NCBI GenBank assembly: GCA_902582345.1
Contig: CACHRU010000006.1
Span: forward strand, 1-52,113
DNA length: 52,113 nucleotides
Direction: 5' to 3'
From: an uncultured Pelagibacteraceae bacterium
GTDB taxonomy: Bacteria; Pseudomonadota; Alphaproteobacteria; Pelagibacterales; Pelagibacteraceae
Shown here one piece after another: positions 14,092 through 44,584 of the stretch. Below the pieces are notes generated by a model. It searched no databases and was not told where the DNA came from. It saw only the letters and a program-made list of their open reading frames with translations. A program made the position numbers and the translations under genes. Position 1 is the first letter of the stretch. Each line of letters starts with the position of its first letter.

Positions 14092-14183
14092 TGGCGGAAG
14101 AGGAGAGATTCGAACTCTCGGTACGATGTTACTCGTACGGTTAGTTAGCAACCAACTGGTTTCAACCGCTCACCCACTCTTCC
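14092..14183 (-). tRNA. tRNA-Ser (anticodon GCU)
   Basis: The minus strand folds as a class II tRNA. The acceptor stem pairs GGAAGAG (14177-14183) with CTCTTCC (14096-14102). The anticodon stem pairs GTTGG with CTAAC and encloses the loop TTGCTAA, giving anticodon GCU for Ser AGC/AGU. There is a long variable arm (CGTACGAG...CGTACC), and the T arm is GAGAG-TTCGAAT-CTCTC. The discriminator G and the CCA end are encoded (14092-14095). The 3' end lies one base from the slt stop. Confidence 0.97.
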
Positions 14184-14252: not shown

Positions 14253-15125
14253 ATGAAGAAAAATTTATTTCAGGGATCTTTATATACTGTGGGTGCTTCT
14301 CTTTGGTGGGGTATCATAGGCGTAATTTATTTTAAATTTGTGTCATTTGCATCACCTATTGAACTAACCATACATAGAACGATATGGACAACATTGCTTT
14401 TGGTAATTACAACAACCTATTTTAGGAAATGGTCTGAGTTTAGAAAAATATTGAAATCATTTTCTACCTTAATCCTCTTATTTATAACGGGAATTTTAGT
14501 ATCTATAAATTGGTTTACTTGGTTGTATTCAATTTCAGTAAATAATATGCTTGATGCATCACTTGGTTATTACATTTTTCCAATTTTAAGTATTTTTTTA
14601 GGTAAAATATTTTTGAAAGAAGGTATAAACAAGAATAAAGCTATTGCTATTTTTCTTGTTTTTTTATCAATTATTTATTTGCTTATAGAGTTTAAGAATA
14701 TTCCATGGATTGGCTTGACAGTAGCAATCACATTTAGTTTATACACATTAATTAGAAAAAAAATAAATATTTCATCAGATATTGGATTGTTTTTTGAAAC
14801 TTTGTTTATATCACCTATTGCGTTAATTTTATTCAGTTATCTTGTTTTTAATAATACAAACATTTTTGGATTTGAAAATCCAGCATTGTCTTTATATCTA
14901 TTTTTTTCAGGGTTAATGACACTTGTTCCTCTTTTTATGTATATTAAAGGTTTTGAGTTAATAGGTATAGGGCCTGCAAGTATGATATTTTTTTTAACAC
15001 CTACAGCTCAATTCTTTTTAAGTATATTTTATCTTGATCAAACACTAGAAATAGAAAAATTAATAAGTTTTATATTTATATGGATTGCTGTAATAATTTA
15101 TCTTAATGAATTGCGTAAAGAATGA
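14253..15125 (+). CDS. rarD: RarD-type EamA-family transporter
   Basis: Ten-helix inner-membrane protein of the drug/metabolite transporter superfamily, 290 residues. It starts KNLFQGSLYTVGASLWWGIIGVIYFKF, typical of RarD proteins, and carries NWFTWLYSISVNNMLDASLGYY and a second EamA repeat with LVPLFMYIKGFELIGIGPASM. The substrate is not known; RarD was named from chloramphenicol sensitivity, but many homologs are metabolite exporters. Its last 28 bases overlap the convergent thiV 3' end. Confidence 0.85.
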   Translation: MKKNLFQGSLYTVGASLWWGIIGVIYFKFVSFASPIELTIHRTIWTTLLLVITTTYFRKWSEFRKILKSFSTLILLFITGILVSINWFTWLYSISVNNMLDASLGYYIFPILSIFLGKIFLKEGINKNKAIAIFLVFLSIIYLLIEFKNIPWIGLTVAITFSLYTLIRKKINISSDIGLFFETLFISPIALILFSYLVFNNTNIFGFENPALSLYLFFSGLMTLVPLFMYIKGFELIGIGPASMIFFLTPTAQFFLSIFYLDQTLEIEKLISFIFIWIAVIIYLNELRKE

Positions 15126-16549
15126 GCAAGAATTATAATTAAAGGTATAATTAAGGATAATAAAAAAGAAATAAAAAGCAAGTTTGTTCTTATAATAATT
15201 GAAAAATTATCAAAAGAAATTAAATTTCCAACTAGAATACTACTTTCAAAATTTTGACTAGGAAAAAATAATAAACCAATAATTAAACCAGAAATTATGG
15301 AATATGCTGCAAGTTTAGTATTTATATCTTTATTAAAAAAACCATAAAAAATTGTTACGACAGCAGCACAACAGAGAAGGTCAGCTAATAAAAATAAATA
15401 TAATATACTGTATCCTCTAGATGCTAAAATAAAAACTAAAAAACATATGAATAAGATTATTAAATTTGTTTTTTCCTTAATTTTTTCTCCTTTCATTTTT
15501 TTACTTATTTGATTTCCATTTACAATAAGTAAACTTGAAATAGCATTAATTAAAGTATCAATGGTACTTAATGTTAGTGACAGTGCTAAAACTAATAGCA
15601 TTATTACAACAAGTGAGCTTTTTTTGTTTAAAATCAAATCAAAAAAAGCGAGATCAGGAATTACTTTTGGATTTAATGAAAAGGATATTAAACCAGTATA
15701 CCCCATCCAAAAAACTATAAAAAAAATAATGACAAATGAATTAATTAAACTTTTTTTTAAAATTAAATTATTTTTTGCCGAAAAAATTCTTTGCCAATTA
15801 CCTTGATGAAATAAATTAGTGCAGGCCACTGCTATGAAAAAGGTTAAACCAGCTGTATAATTAGGTAAATAATTCTTATCAATTAATTCGGGTGAATTTT
15901 TTCTTATCATTTCAAAACTAGGTATATTTAAATTTCCTAATATTAATATTAGGGAAAATAAAATAATTCCTGCTATAAAAACAAACTGATATTTATCAGT
16001 AATAATTGAAAGTTTGAATCCACCTCTTAATATATAAAGTAAGCAAATCATTAGTGTTAATCCTGCTGTAATCCAAAGTGGAACTTTTGAAATATAGTTT
16101 AACAAAGAGGCAATAGCGGTTACTTCTGCTATTAAAAAGATTATCAAATAAAATAGCATTAAGAATAGACTTAACTTTAATATAGCTTTACCGAATCTTT
16201 TTTCTATGAATTCAGTCAATGTTAAACCATCAGGAAATTCTTTTCGAATTTTAGGGCCAAAATTGTAAAGAAATAGCATTGGGGTGGCCGCACCTAGTGC
16301 ATACCCTATCACAGCTCCTATACCTCCCCACGTAGCTGCAGAGGGAGGACCAAATAAGATCCAAGCACCTAGTGCAGAGGCTATTAAACTCGAAGTTAAT
16401 GAGAATATATTTTCATCTCTTCCACCAACAATATAATTTTTATTATTAGGTATTTTTTGAGTATTTAGATAGCCTAATCCAATAAAGAATAGACCAATTA
16501 AAATGGTGACGATTATTGATATTTGTATTGATAAATATTCTTTTTCCAT
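15098..16549 (-). CDS. thiV: Sodium:solute symporter under TPP riboswitch control (ThiV-type)
   Basis: Polytopic inner-membrane protein, 483 residues, about 13 hydrophobic segments, of the sodium:solute symporter superfamily. Signs are NYIVGGRDENIFSLTSSLIASALGAW near the N-terminus, GPPSAATWGGIGAVIGYALGA, and FPDGLTLTEFIEKRFG. The preceding TPP riboswitch ties it to thiamin. In SAR11 a symporter with this arrangement was named ThiV and proposed to import the thiamin pyrimidine precursor HMP; applying that here is inference from family plus riboswitch. The start ATG (16547-16549) is preceded by AGGGAG, which is also the 3' end of the riboswitch. Confidence 0.88.
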   Translation of the reverse strand: MEKEYLSIQISIIVTILIGLFFIGLGYLNTQKIPNNKNYIVGGRDENIFSLTSSLIASALGAWILFGPPSAATWGGIGAVIGYALGAATPMLFLYNFGPKIRKEFPDGLTLTEFIEKRFGKAILKLSLFLMLFYLIIFLIAEVTAIASLLNYISKVPLWITAGLTLMICLLYILRGGFKLSIITDKYQFVFIAGIILFSLILILGNLNIPSFEMIRKNSPELIDKNYLPNYTAGLTFFIAVACTNLFHQGNWQRIFSAKNNLILKKSLINSFVIIFFIVFWMGYTGLISFSLNPKVIPDLAFFDLILNKKSSLVVIMLLVLALSLTLSTIDTLINAISSLLIVNGNQISKKMKGEKIKEKTNLIILFICFLVFILASRGYSILYLFLLADLLCCAAVVTIFYGFFNKDINTKLAAYSIISGLIIGLLFFPSQNFESSILVGNLISFDNFSIIIRTNLLFISFLLSLIIPLIIILAHSLRNSLR

Positions 16550-16550
16550 A

Positions 16551-16613
16551 TCTCCCTTACTGAATTACCGGTCAGGTTCATCGGGTATAATCTCAGTCTC
16601 TCAGACACCCCGT
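16551..16613 (-). promoter_or_regulatory. TPP (THI-box) riboswitch, compact form
   Basis: The minus-strand sequence fills the thiV leader. It holds GGGGTG, then a minimal P3 hairpin (GTCT-GAG-AGAC), the core CTGAGA, ACCC pairing back to GGGG (P2), GAACCTGA, a P5 hairpin CTGA...TCAG around CCGGTAAT, and the closing AAGGGAGA. The final AGGGAG is the likely ribosome binding site, 5 or so bases before ATG, so ligand binding would most simply block translation initiation. P1 pairing is weak by eye. All THI-box landmarks occur in order. Confidence 0.93.
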
Positions 16614-16620
16614 TATTAAA

Positions 16621-16650
16621 TTTATACTACTATTTTAGGTAACAAGTCAA
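16621..16650 (-). promoter_or_regulatory. Probable sigma70 promoter of thiV, inside the umuC 3' end
   Basis: On the minus strand TTGACT (16645-16650), an 18-base spacer and TATAAA (16621-16626). The expected start of transcription, about 7 bases downstream (near 16614), coincides with the first base of the TPP riboswitch. The -10 overlaps the umuC stop codon. It closely resembles the umuD promoter (TTGACG-N18-TATAAA). Confidence 0.65.
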
Positions 16651-17905
16651 ATGAAGCTGTATCTATTTTAGATGAATGCTCTCTTCTCATTTTCCAACCC
16701 TTGCTCAAACCTGCTTGTGCTATACTTATTGCATATCGTCCGTATTTTGTATTTGTATAATCTATTGCTTTCATTAATTTTTTAGATTTATTTTCTAGTA
16801 ATGGAGTTAAAAGATTTTGGTCATTTTGATTAGAATCTTTTAAACCTGATAATATTATACCAGCTTTCTGATATGAATACCCATGCTTGTATATATCTGT
16901 TAAAGCTTTAACAGCATCTTTTATTAACTCTATACTATTGTTAGTTGGAATAGCTAAATCAACTGTTTTTGAGTTTGAATAATATTTTCTATTTTTATCG
17001 AATGGGCTAGTCCTTATAAATACTGTTATTGTTTTTGCAACTTGGTCGTCAGCTCTAATTTTTTCTGCAGCGTTTAAACAATGAGTAATTATCGACTCTT
17101 CTAGCTCATTTATTTCCTTTACTTTTCTACCAAAAGATCTTGAGACACAACAATTTTTTCTTTTTTCTTGCTCTGTCTGCAGGTCAATACAAGGTATCCC
17201 TCTTAATTCCATTGCGGTTTTGGCGCCTAAAACGTTTGTTCCCTTTTTAACCCAAGTATTAGACACATTTTTTAAATCATAAGCATTTTTTATATCATTT
17301 TTATAATAAAATTTAGATAATTGTTTTCCCACTCCCCAAACATCTTCGATTGGAAATTTTTTTAGTTTTTCATCAATATTTGTATTTAAATACATTACAC
17401 CTGCTTTTTCTTTTTTTGCTATATGATTTGCAACTTTACTTAATGTTTTTGTAGTAGCTATACCAACACTAGTTGGTATTCCTGTCCATTTTAACACTCT
17501 TGCTCTTACCTCTCTTCCGTAATCTTCTATTCCTTTCTCATCTACAAAAGATAAATCAATAAAAGCTTCGTCGATCGAATAGATTTCAACTTTAGGTGAA
17601 AAAGTTTTCAATACTTTCATTACTCTACGGGATATATCTCCGTATAACGCATAATTTGAAGAGTATACTTCAACCTTGTTTTTTTTTACTAAATCTTTTA
17701 CTTTAAAGTATGGTTCTCCCATTTTAATACCAAGGACCTTTGCTTCTTTTGATCTAGATATTACACAACCATCATTGTTTGATAAAACAACCACAGCTTT
17801 TTTTTGTATTTTAGGATTAAATAGCCTCTCACATGAAACATAAAACGAATTACAGTCTACTAAGGCTATTTTGTTTTTTTTACTGATGTACTTGATGGAT
17901 GACAT
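16622..17905 (-). CDS. umuC: DNA polymerase V catalytic subunit UmuC (Y family)
   Basis: Error-prone translesion DNA polymerase that works with processed UmuD'. It has 427 residues, standard length. Catalytic acidic residues are D17 in IALVDCNSFYVSCERLF and D112-E113 in YSIDEAFIDLSF. LSNNDGCVISRSKEAK, GIKMGEPYF and TKTLSKVANHIAKK are also typical, and the C-terminal UmuC-specific region ends GLSKGWKMRREHSSKI. Translation starts inside umuD (26-base overlap), giving about 12 residues before the usual family start. No transposon or plasmid marker is nearby, and base composition matches its neighbours. Confidence 0.95.
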   Translation of the reverse strand: MSSIKYISKKNKIALVDCNSFYVSCERLFNPKIQKKAVVVLSNNDGCVISRSKEAKVLGIKMGEPYFKVKDLVKKNKVEVYSSNYALYGDISRRVMKVLKTFSPKVEIYSIDEAFIDLSFVDEKGIEDYGREVRARVLKWTGIPTSVGIATTKTLSKVANHIAKKEKAGVMYLNTNIDEKLKKFPIEDVWGVGKQLSKFYYKNDIKNAYDLKNVSNTWVKKGTNVLGAKTAMELRGIPCIDLQTEQEKRKNCCVSRSFGRKVKEINELEESIITHCLNAAEKIRADDQVAKTITVFIRTSPFDKNRKYYSNSKTVDLAIPTNNSIELIKDAVKALTDIYKHGYSYQKAGIILSGLKDSNQNDQNLLTPLLENKSKKLMKAIDYTNTKYGRYAISIAQAGLSKGWKMRREHSSKIDTASFDLLPKIVV

Positions 17906-18278
17906 AGGTTACCACTCCCCAAATTATTATTTCCTGATCTTTTGATAAATGAATTCTATCTTCTATTTTTTTTGATCCCGAAGCCAAAAATGTTTCTCCT
18001 TTTTCTTTCAAAATTGTTTTTACTACCAGTTCATCATTTACATTAGCAATAACAGTAGAAAAATTTTTAGGATTTATACTTCTATCTACTATTAATAAAT
18101 CTCCATCATAAATACCAACACCGTTCATAGATTTCCCTTGAACCCTGATGATGAATGTTGCTGGTGAATTTTTTATTAAGTGGTTATTCAAATCAACATC
18201 GTCTTCTATGTAATCTGTGGCAGGTGATGGAAAACCAGCTCCTACTTTGTGTATGTAATAAGGTATTTTAAGCTCCAT
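17880..18278 (-). CDS. umuD: UmuD, self-cleaving subunit of DNA polymerase V
   Basis: S24-family protein cleaved through RecA stimulation to UmuD', which activates UmuC. It has 132 residues. The cleavage site is A14-G15 in VGAGFPSPATDY. The catalytic dyad is S50 in VQGKSMNGVGIYDGD and K87 in LVVKTIL. These lie exactly ten residues before the E. coli positions (cleavage at 24-25, S60, K97), so all functional residues are conserved. An SOS-type operator and promoter sit immediately upstream. Confidence 0.95.
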   Translation of the reverse strand: MELKIPYYIHKVGAGFPSPATDYIEDDVDLNNHLIKNSPATFIIRVQGKSMNGVGIYDGDLLIVDRSINPKNFSTVIANVNDELVVKTILKEKGETFLASGSKKIEDRIHLSKDQEIIIWGVVTYVIHQVHQ

Positions 18279-18388: not shown

Positions 18389-19168
18389 ATGAAGAAAATA
18401 GTAGTTGCATTCATTCTGTCCTTAGTAACAACAACATGCTTTGCAGATGGTCATGCAAAATCAAAGCTGGCTGCAATTAAAAAAAGCGGTGAATTACGCG
18501 TTGGAACAACTGGAGATTGGGATCCGATGTCGATGAAAGATCCTGCAACAAACAAGTATAAAGGATTTGATATTGATGTAATGAAAGAACTTGCTAAAGA
18601 TCTAGGGGTAAAAGTAAAGTTTGTACCTGCAGAATGGAAAACAATAGTGGCTGGAATAACTGCGGATAGATACGATATTTCAACAAGCGTAACTAAAACG
18701 CCTAAAAGAGCAGAGGTAGCGGGATTTACAGCTACTTACTATAAATACGGTACTGTTCCTCTTGTTCTAAAGAAAAATTTAAAAAAGTTTCCAACATGGG
18801 ATTCATTAAATAATAAAAAAGTTACAATAGCTACAACATTAGGTACTTCTCAAGAAGAAAAAGCAAAAGAATTTTTCCCAAAATCAAAACTTAAATCTGT
18901 TGAAGCACCTGCTAGAGATTTTCAAGAAGTTTTGGCGGGAAGAGCAGACGGCAACATTACGAGTTCTCTTGAAGCCAATAAATTAATCGTTAAGTATCCT
19001 CAATTAGCTATAGTTCCTGATGGAGGCAAGAACCCTGCTTTTCTGGCTATGATGGTTCCAAAAGGAGATAAGATTTGGAATGACTATGTTAGCAATTGGA
19101 TCAAAAGAAAACAATCTTCTGGGTTTTTTATGACTCTTGAAGCTAAATATAACCTTAAAAGTTTATAA
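18389..19168 (+). CDS. Periplasmic solute-binding protein, family 3 (amino-acid type, PheC-like)
   Basis: Secreted protein of 259 residues with a signal peptide (1-19, cleavage after CFA). The bacterial solute-binding family 3 fold is shown by [58 protein letters not shown] and [17 protein letters not shown]. The start of the mature protein is closest to cyclohexadienyl dehydratase (PheC)-type members of this family, so an enzyme is a possible alternative. The adjacent permease 41 bases downstream favours transport of an amino acid or related small acid. The ligand cannot be read from sequence. Confidence 0.82.
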
Positions 19169-19209
19169 TTTAAGTTTAAAAAATCTTTATTTACAAATAT
19201 AGTCAATTA

Positions 19210-19944
19210 GTGAAGATTTTAAAATTAACAGTTTTATTTTTTTTTCTACAAGGATGTAGCTCAAACTACGAGTGGGGTTGGTATATTCTTAGTCCAGAAA
19301 ATATAGAGGGTCTGACAAATCTTAAATTTTTGATAAGTGGAATAACTACCACTATTTATATTTCAGTAGTGTCTATAATTCTTGCGATGATTATAGGTTT
19401 GATTGTTGCTTTACCTTCGCTTTCAAATAATAAGTTTCTGAGTTATTTTAATATTGGTTACGTTGAATTTGTTAGAGCAATACCTTTATTAGTATTAATT
19501 CTTTGGATTTATTATGGGTTACCAATAATGCTGGGGGTAAGCTTTTCTCCATTTGTGTCTGGCATAATAGCTTTAACGATAAGTGAAAGTGCCTTTCAAG
19601 CAGAAATTTTCAGAGCAGGTATAAATTCAATTTCTAAAGGACAACACGAAGTATCTGAGTCCCTCGGAATGGATTTTTGGAAAAAAATGAGATTAGTAAT
19701 TTTACCACAAGCTATTAAAGTTGTATTACCCGCGATGGGAAATCAATTTGTTTATGTTTTAAAAATGTCCTCTCTAGTATCGATTATAGGGATAGGAGAT
19801 TTAACAAGAAAGGCTAATGAACTAGTCACAACTACCTACAGACCTTTAGAAATATATACATTTTTAATACTAGAGTACTTAGTGTTAATATTAGTAGTCT
19901 CTTATTTTGTAAGAAAATTAGAAAATAAACTAAAATACAAATAA
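19210..19944 (+). CDS. Amino-acid ABC transporter permease (HisM/GlnP type) with lipobox-like N-terminus
   Basis: Inner-membrane permease of polar amino-acid ABC transporters, 244 residues, starting at GTG. Family features are GITTTIYISVVSIILAMIIG, FVRAIPLLVLILWIYYGLP, the coupling loop ESLGMDFWKKMRLVILPQAIKVVLPAMGNQFV, and VSIIGIGDLTRKANEL. The first 18 residues read as a hydrophobic stretch ending LQGCSS, like a lipoprotein signal, which is unusual for a permease. No ATPase gene follows; the next gene is a convergent MATE pump overlapping by 15 bases. An ATPase from another locus must serve it if it is a transporter. Confidence 0.88.
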   Translation: MKILKLTVLFFFLQGCSSNYEWGWYILSPENIEGLTNLKFLISGITTTIYISVVSIILAMIIGLIVALPSLSNNKFLSYFNIGYVEFVRAIPLLVLILWIYYGLPIMLGVSFSPFVSGIIALTISESAFQAEIFRAGINSISKGQHEVSESLGMDFWKKMRLVILPQAIKVVLPAMGNQFVYVLKMSSLVSIIGIGDLTRKANELVTTTYRPLEIYTFLILEYLVLILVVSYFVRKLENKLKYK

Positions 19945-44039: not shown

Positions 44040-44584
44040 TACTTTTTCTTTCCCTCTTTCCTTAAAACAAACTGATTTCTCTCTTTTATCCCTTTAGCTT
44101 TATAAGGTTCAACAGGTTTTAAACTTTTAATATCAGCAGCAACTTTTGAAACTAAATCCTTATCAACTCCAGTTATTTTTAAGATTGTTTGCTTTTCAAC
44201 TGCTATCTTAATATCTTTTGGAATTTTAAAATTAATGTCGTGACTAAAACCAAGCTGCATACTTAATGTTTCTCCTTTTAAATTAGCACGAAAGCCAACG
44301 CCTGATATCTCTAAAATTTTTTCATGTCCAGTTGAGACGCCTTTAACAGCATTATTTATCAAGCTTCTATAAGTTCCCCATAATATTGAAGTTTTTTTAT
44401 CAACTTTTTTATCAAGAGGCGTTAGCTGAAATTCATTCTTATCATTTACAGTTGATGAAAAAATCTTTTGATCAATAGTGATTTGTTTGCTTCCTTTTGG
44501 TCCACTAATATTCAAATTCGCCCCTTCAATTTTAATTGAAGACTCTTTTGGAATAGATATATTTTTTTTTCCTATTTTTGACAT
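44039..44584 (-). CDS. rplF: 50S ribosomal protein L6
   Basis: Large-subunit protein, 181 residues, two repeated L6 domains. It starts MSKIGKKNISIP; LNISGPKGS, LEISGVGFRANLKG and the C-terminal EPYKAKGIKERNQFVLRKEGKKK region are characteristic. It is directly coupled to rpsH and rplR. Confidence 0.97.
   Translation of the reverse strand: MSKIGKKNISIPKESSIKIEGANLNISGPKGSKQITIDQKIFSSTVNDKNEFQLTPLDKKVDKKTSILWGTYRSLINNAVKGVSTGHEKILEISGVGFRANLKGETLSMQLGFSHDINFKIPKDIKIAVEKQTILKITGVDKDLVSKVAADIKSLKPVEPYKAKGIKERNQFVLRKEGKKK

Follow-up and report, generated by a model that had tools for sequence, protein, structure and literature searches.

A shortened TPP-family aptamer with an altered ligand site, probably a direct translational OFF switch, in the thiV leader of Pelagibacteraceae

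The question raised by the thiV leader

How can a leader of only a few dozen nucleotides (nt) control a transporter gene, and what would it sense? We addressed this question at the umuC-thiV gap of an uncultured Pelagibacteraceae bacterium (assembly GCA_902582345.1, contig CACHRU010000006.1), using a stretch of 52,113 nt, hereafter the window, whose positions are used throughout. The gap is 72 nt long (16550-16621) and holds, on the minus strand, a 60-nt aptamer of the thiamin pyrophosphate (TPP) riboswitch family, also called THI-box, at 16553-16612. Its 3' end is the Shine-Dalgarno sequence of thiV, and part of the pocket that in other members of the family receives the pyrophosphate is missing. 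We read this element as a shortened TPP aptamer variant whose ligand site is altered and which turns thiV OFF directly at translation, a reading to which we give a probability of about 0.7.

Identification and conservation of the aptamer

In a permissive scan of positions 16500-16700, the TPP family RF00059 was the best Rfam match (16622-16535, 43.1 bits, expectation value (E) 1.3e-7). Because the gathering score of RF00059 is 54.3 bits, an Rfam scan of the whole window at gathering thresholds missed the aptamer, and its sole match above threshold was a tRNA. A model built from relatives (R1), whose training set includes this very sequence, scored the aptamer at 93.1 bits, while the next-best match in the window reached 15.2 bits. 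Across the genus, 135 of 169 genomes had an RF00059 match at E ≤ 0.001, which is more than chance, and none (0/169) reached the gathering score. The source genome (978,207 bases, 84.9% complete) had two RF00059 matches at E ≤ 1. The second (44072-44156, 19.6 bits, E 0.086; 15.2 bits with R1) was taken as a chance match, as UGAGA and CCUG landmarks were not seen in the stretch viewed.

Conservation was assessed on an alignment of 49 of the 80 distinct aptamers of the collapsed type described below, from four genera. These rows are related by descent, hence the counts of changed pairs are not counts of independent events. Helices P2 to P5 were paired in 92.5% of cells (85.0% in shuffles), and the covariation score without P1 was 0.212, compared with 0.083 for shuffled alignments and at most 0.046 in slid controls. 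Five pairs had changed on both sides (3.3 in shuffles, with 8 of 500 shuffles as high), and compensatory changes were present in P2, P3 and P5. P2 was paired in 96.7% of cells, its outer pair being A-U in 19 sequences, C-G in 12, U-A in 10, U-G in one and unpaired in seven. P3 was paired in all counted cells, two of its pairs showing compensatory changes, and the outer pair of P5 formed in 49/49 sequences (30 A-U, 18 U-A, 1 G-U). The UGAGA pocket and the UAAU of loop L5 were invariant in the 49 sequences. A C.A mismatch in P5 (16561 and 16570, minus strand) was unpaired in 47 of the 49 aptamers, and no reason for it was established.

Loss of the pyrophosphate pocket and of the P1 helix

The internal loop between P4 and P5 (J4/5; G60-A61-U62 / C77-G78-U79 in Escherichia coli thiM) has collapsed to one mismatch. 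Four of its positions were gaps in the cmscan alignment and were assigned to A61, U62, C77 and G78 of E. coli thiM, a numbering derived from published passages and our own alignment. The equivalents of U59 and A80 were invariant, and G60 was kept in 48/49 sequences. According to passages of PMC3764141 and PMC7824784, C77, G78 and likewise G60 are highly conserved, and C77/G78 (G78 alone in one of the papers) directly contact the pyrophosphate or its metal ion.

A parse into collapsed and C77-G78 (CG) types covered 165 of 174 loci, leaving six loci of a family labelled f2 as well as L078, L079 and L163, the last of which had no CG by eye. The 59 source-genus loci, from 135 matching genomes, came from best-scoring lists and one hand-picked batch. 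Another 46 thiV relatives, from named genomes, all bear SAR11-type names (Pelagibacteraceae, Pelagibacterales, Pelagibacter, SAR11 cluster; e.g., HIMB058, PRT-SC02), which places the window in SAR11. They had no genus label from the tool and were placed with the genus by the closeness of their thiV. HIMB058 marks subclade II, and PRT-SC02 (L076) may belong to another SAR11 group. C77-G78 was absent from 54 of 57 distinct tool-labelled loci of the source genus, and from 78 of 81 when the named relatives were pooled. The sister genera g81 (26/27 loci, hand-picked from the better-scoring part of the list), g84 (4/4) and g82 (2/2) also lacked it, for a total of 32/33, while it was present in g83 (4/4), g80 (2/2) and f2 (22/22). 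One genome of the source genus, G096 (loci L084 and L208), contained both aptamer types; its estimated contamination is 7%.

Among class control loci, CG was found in 70 of 72, L260 being a true exception without CG and L254 unread; by eye, L245 had CG and L253 had CG plus one extra base. Of 385 class genomes, 52 had a match to R1, including 47 that do not belong to Pelagibacterales, and the collapsed variant was found at none of the 25 loci viewed from these outside places (24 with CG, L296 with TG). At its setting of E 1e-6, the RF00059 class control might overlook collapsed aptamers with weak scores, some genus members scoring between 1e-6 and 3e-5. An exact-pattern search of viral contigs returned no copy of the variant. 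Judged from these sequences, the loss of the pyrophosphate pocket spans most of the lineage and makes the ligand uncertain. The literature searched holds no statement of this loss; Carini 2014, Rodionov 2002 and the supplements lay outside the reach of that search, and the loss may be in print.

The closing helix P1 was not detectable in the source genus, where the flanks formed 1.81 contiguous pairs, as many as when shuffled (1.81; 58 distinct flank pairs), and 1.97 versus 1.95 in the 36 tool-labelled flank pairs of the collapsed type. Over four genera, 49.6% of P1 cells were paired. Flank pairing was above shuffles in g80 (6.0 versus 3.0, n = 2), g82 (5.0 versus 2.8, n = 2) and g83 (4.5 versus 2.7, n = 4), and slightly so in g81 (3.07 versus 2.68), g84 (2.75 versus 2.41) and f2 (2.61 versus 2.15). 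The class controls had a mean of 4.46 P1 pairs over 68 loci, a figure taken as the best of several GGGG choices and without shuffles. The loss of P1 is therefore clear only for the source genus.

These results revise part of an initial annotation of this DNA, made from the sequence alone. It had placed a TPP riboswitch in the umuC-thiV gap, and a TPP-family aptamer is indeed there, on the minus strand, with the four-pair P3 that had been described. The covariance-model search it had proposed returned RF00059 as the best match, at a score below the gathering threshold. The gap is longer than the 63 bases that the aptamer was said to fill, and the statement that all THI-box landmarks fit does not hold for J4/5 or for P1, which had been called seemingly minimal. 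As A61, U62, C77 and G78 are missing and P1 is undetectable, TPP as the ligand is an assumption.

Transporter subtypes and thiamin metabolism

The product of thiV matches the sodium:solute symporters (PF00474, E 9e-14), and its gene has the THI-box upstream. In a tree of 28 hand-selected ThiV proteins, the 10 encoded behind CG aptamers and the 18 behind collapsed aptamers were separated by a single branch (support 100/99), with none of 500 shuffles scoring as low. Some genomes are present twice in this tree (L139/L261, L158/L271), and the sequences of L262 and L265 end short of the second of two motifs that distinguish the subtypes. These motifs are CFG(V/I/L)WILIGP and LFDQG(I/V)WQR with CG aptamers, and (A/S)LG(A/T/S)W(I/V)LFGP and LFHQGNWQR with collapsed aptamers. 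Five more ThiV proteins, outside the motif set of the tree, all agreed with their aptamer type. Both types occur within the source genus and within g81, although one of the three source-genus examples (L084) is from the genome with 7% contamination. Linkage alone could explain this co-segregation. Other downstream genes were also found: three of the four collapsed aptamers of g84 precede a gene whose product begins like an NMT1/THI5 protein (tested in one), and the single f2 product tested was a thiamin-binding protein (TIGR01254 over its cut-off, TIGR01276 thiB below).

Regarding thiamin synthesis, thiC had no match in 61 genus genomes, of which only four are at least 90% complete, while thiD and thiE were present in the source genome over their cut-offs. 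With thiL at E ≤ 1e-25, 158 of 297 genomes of the order had a match, all within one genus (g81) of 11. A 45-bit thiL match in the source genome was rejected; it is a PurM-like open reading frame (ORF) beside a PurN-like one, both named by reading the sequence. TPK was found in none of 23 source-genus genomes and in 12 of 14 f2 genomes. The step from thiamin monophosphate (TMP) to TPP thus has no recognised enzyme in the source genus (no ThiL, no TPK match) although thiD and thiE are present. A passage of PMC10030771 notes thiL loss for subclade IIIa. The presence of thiL and the aptamer type are uncoupled: g81 has thiL and collapsed aptamers, both thiL and the pocket are lacking in the source genus, and the pocket occurs without thiL in g80 and g83.

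A Shine-Dalgarno sequence inside the aptamer

The distance from AGGGA to the thiV ATG is 3 nt here and in 50 of 57 distinct genus loci (range 2-6). The unconstrained fold pairs AGG with CCU in P4, beside the thiV start codon. The initial annotation had taken AGGGAG for the thiV Shine-Dalgarno sequence, which is correct, although its AGGG belongs to the 3' strand of P4 and not to P1, and the folding it had suggested as a check gave this same pairing. Its further view, that control is most likely translational with no room for a separate expression platform, agrees with a Shine-Dalgarno sequence inside the aptamer and with the lack of a terminator-like site in 16450-16850, the latter being weak evidence with only 0.1 such sites expected by chance. 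Its third proposal, import of a thiamin precursor, is in line with the thiC result above and with published work on strain HTCC7211, whose cells take up hydroxymethylpyrimidine (HMP) and for which the authors name ThiV as the likely transporter.

The sequences show what kind of aptamer this is, its anatomy and conservation, the Shine-Dalgarno overlap and the J4/5 loss; from them we infer ligand binding, the direction of control and the mechanism. By binding in the pyrimidine pocket UGAGA, which is intact, a ligand would fix P4 and its junction with P2, and P4 so fixed would hide AGG, the core of the thiV Shine-Dalgarno sequence. With the start codon 3 nt beyond, ribosomes would be kept off and less thiamin precursor would be imported; when the ligand is absent, the three-pair P4 would breathe and thiV would be translated. 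Such a ligand would carry the HMP pyrimidine, the candidates being TPP bound by altered contacts, HMP, HMP phosphate (HMP-P), thiamin and TMP. TPP riboswitches that carry the Shine-Dalgarno sequence in the aptamer core, at its purine-rich 3' end, have been described (PMC2258182), and the mechanism is termed direct translation attenuation. In f2 (L003-L016, L018-L020, L143-L146, L148-L155), canonical TPP aptamers end in GAGGA with the ATG 3-9 nt later (23 parsed loci). Because these aptamers end at GAGGA and the tested f2 product (L003) is a thiamin-binding protein, platform-free control would extend beyond thiV.

An alternative ON hairpin, CUGR/YCAG (CUGA-UCAG here), was considered. Three of its four pairs were kept in 47-49 of the 49 sequences. 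It was dropped as the main explanation, since its fourth pair was unpaired in 18/49, the competing outer pair of P5 covaries, and the P4-P5 fold was better by 1.4 kcal/mol. We also looked for a promoter from which transcription would begin at the aptamer, with TATAAA (16621-16626) as the candidate. The scan passed no site on the minus strand, and the motif is kept only as a hint. The best -10-like hexamer ends 8 nt upstream of GGGG in 23 of 60 flanks and is equally explained by protein conservation, because it lies partly within the 3' end of umuC. The genes umuD and umuC (16622-18278) precede thiV in the same orientation and form an SOS-type operon whose transcription might continue into thiV; relatives L024 and L053 likewise have a UmuC-like ORF at their thiV loci.

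Weighing the explanations

Several observations weigh against a translational OFF switch as proposed here. The helix that usually does the switching, P1, could not be detected. P4 was paired in 49/49 sequences but is invariant, so that its pairing cannot be tested by covariation, and further pair types showed no excess over shuffles (11 versus 10.3; 198 of 500 as high). In the energy model without ligand, AGGG was unpaired with a mean probability of 0.40 over the 55 distinct sequences placed in the genus (0.26-0.35 in other groups), and therefore the structure may be partly closed even before ligand is bound. Finally, thiV could be transcribed together with umuDC. A decayed aptamer, retained only as a ribosome binding site and free of ligand control, would fit the loss of J4/5, the loss of P1 in the source genus and the conserved C.A mismatch of P5; as compensatory changes preserve the pairing of P2, P3 and P5 and none of the 49 sequences, from four genera, departs from UGAGA, we find decay improbable. 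Control by transcription attenuation appears even more improbable, considering that the aptamer ends 3 nt before the ATG and that no terminator-like site was seen.

What a direct translational OFF switch for thiV would sense is a closer matter. It could be an ordinary TPP sensor in which shortening of the P3 and P4-P5 arms places other nucleotides and Mg ions at the pyrophosphate, the pocket having been lost through streamlining. TPP is the best Rfam family, the U59, A80 and nearly all G60 equivalents are retained, both arms are shortened, and g81 keeps thiL, the usual TPP-making step, yet is collapsed in nearly all its loci. SAR11 RNAs also tend to be short, a trend that the authors call not statistically significant in Meyer 2009. 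We would put this explanation at slightly under even odds, given the published conservation of G60, C77 and G78, the contacts of C77/G78 and the retention of CG in the class controls. Alternatively, the aptamer may be re-tuned to the pyrimidine precursor pool (HMP, HMP-P, or thiamin/TMP), the importer being shut by its own substrate or first product. The invariant pyrimidine pocket beside the missing pyrophosphate pocket points this way, as do the LFHQGNWQR subtype or NMT1/THI5-like genes behind collapsed aptamers, and the thiamin-binding product and frequent TPK of f2, where aptamers are canonical. In the HTCC7211 study, HMP transport fell within an hour of HMP exposure, and the authors state that ligand specificity still needs testing. 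However, canonical aptamers also precede thiV, of the other subtype, in g80 and g83, so that the target gene alone does not predict the aptamer type, and linkage on one DNA segment could yield the co-segregation without function. Re-tuning is thus a real possibility that we hold with some reserve. In its most specific form, the TPP aptamer of most Pelagibacteraceae would be a natural variant in specificity that no longer has its pyrophosphate sensor, reads HMP or HMP-P and, without P1 in this genus, imposes a platform-free translational block on its own importer. We offer this form tentatively and with somewhat greater reserve.

If that form were true, a pyrimidine riboswitch would be hidden under the TPP riboswitch label in some of the most abundant marine heterotrophs. 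Published accounts portray the SAR11 strains examined to date as dependent on dissolved HMP and their thiV as subject to repression by TPP. Should the pocket for TPP be lacking, the signal behind this feedback would have to be re-examined. With aptamer and ribosome binding site being one, the SAR11 leader offers a natural test of which half of a TPP aptamer suffices for control.

Features of the locus

The coordinates of the aptamer parts and of the adjacent genes are given in Table 1. Elsewhere in the window, we observed a tRNA gene with a long variable arm (14095-14183, minus strand) and divergent ORFs (18389-19944, plus strand) that, from translations read by eye, resemble a binding protein and a permease of an amino-acid-type ATP-binding cassette (ABC) transporter.

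Table 1. Positions in the window of the thiV-leader aptamer, its parts and the flanking genes (aa, amino acids).
Feature	Positions	Strand	Basis
Compact THI-box (TPP-family) aptamer, C-GGGG ... AGGGA, 60 nt	16553-16612	-	RF00059 43.1 bits; R1 93.1 bits; letters checked
P2 5' strand CGGG, partner 16582-16585	16609-16612	-	Outer pair counts in 49 sequences
P2 3' strand CCCG	16582-16585	-	
P3 5' strand GUCU	16603-16606	-	Three P3 pairs counted, the fourth of this sequence not included
P3 3' strand AGAC; 4 base pairs, 3-nt loop, no P3a	16596-16599	-	
J3-2 UGAGA, pyrimidine (HMP-moiety) pocket, intact	16591-16595	-	Invariant alignment columns; residue function from passages of PMC3764141, PMC7824784
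P4 5' strand CCU	16574-16576	-	Invariant in 49 sequences, so uninformative on pairing
J4-5 remnant, 5' side: G60 equivalent; A61, U62 absent	16573	-	cmscan gaps; comparison with controls
P5 ACCG-GUAAUU-CAGU, loop GUAAUU, with conserved C.A mismatch	16559-16572	-	Pair counts in 49 sequences
J5-4 remnant: position 79; C77, G78 absent	16558	-	cmscan gaps; comparison with controls
P4 3' strand AGG, Shine-Dalgarno core	16555-16557	-	Unconstrained minimum-energy fold pairs AGG with CCU
Shine-Dalgarno AAGGGAG of thiV	16552-16558	-	AGGGA-to-ATG spacing
thiV, sodium:solute symporter, LFHQGNWQR subtype, 483 aa, ATG 16549-16547	15098-16549	-	PF00474 E 9e-14; TIGR00813 under its cut-off; ORF
umuC, upstream neighbour, stop UAA 16624-16622	16622-17905	-	ORF and domain matches

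Comparison with known systems

The pairing of a riboswitch with thiV in SAR11 is already known, and the kind and location of the element are mostly known as well, a TPP riboswitch before this transporter having been published for Candidatus Pelagibacter (Meyer 2009 and McRose 2014). The TPP riboswitch of Ca. P. ubique SAR11_0811 is the same kind of aptamer before a transporter named ThiV. Of the 89 nt of our match in genome G273 (786499-786587), 76 fall within the published HTCC1062 intergenic region (786467-786574). The match has a collapsed J4/5, and its outer pair of P5 is U-A instead of A-U. From this overlap, the published HTCC1062 TPP riboswitch probably shares the pocket defect, which is not mentioned in the portions of Meyer 2009 and McRose 2014 available to us. 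Compared with RF00059 in general, the SAR11 aptamer shares P2, P3, the UGAGA of J3-2, P4, P5 and the UAAU loop in the same order, but its J4/5 is without A61, U62, C77 and G78, P1 is undetectable in the genus and the score is under the gathering threshold. The HMP-PP riboswitch (thiS motif) senses a thiamin pyrimidine precursor, as the SAR11 element may do; it differs in its architecture, is embedded in a terminator and is an ON switch. The direct translation attenuation riboswitches (Barrick and Breaker 2007) likewise have their ribosome binding site in the aptamer core, at its purine-rich 3' end, while the SAR11 element has this arrangement without a detectable P1 helix.
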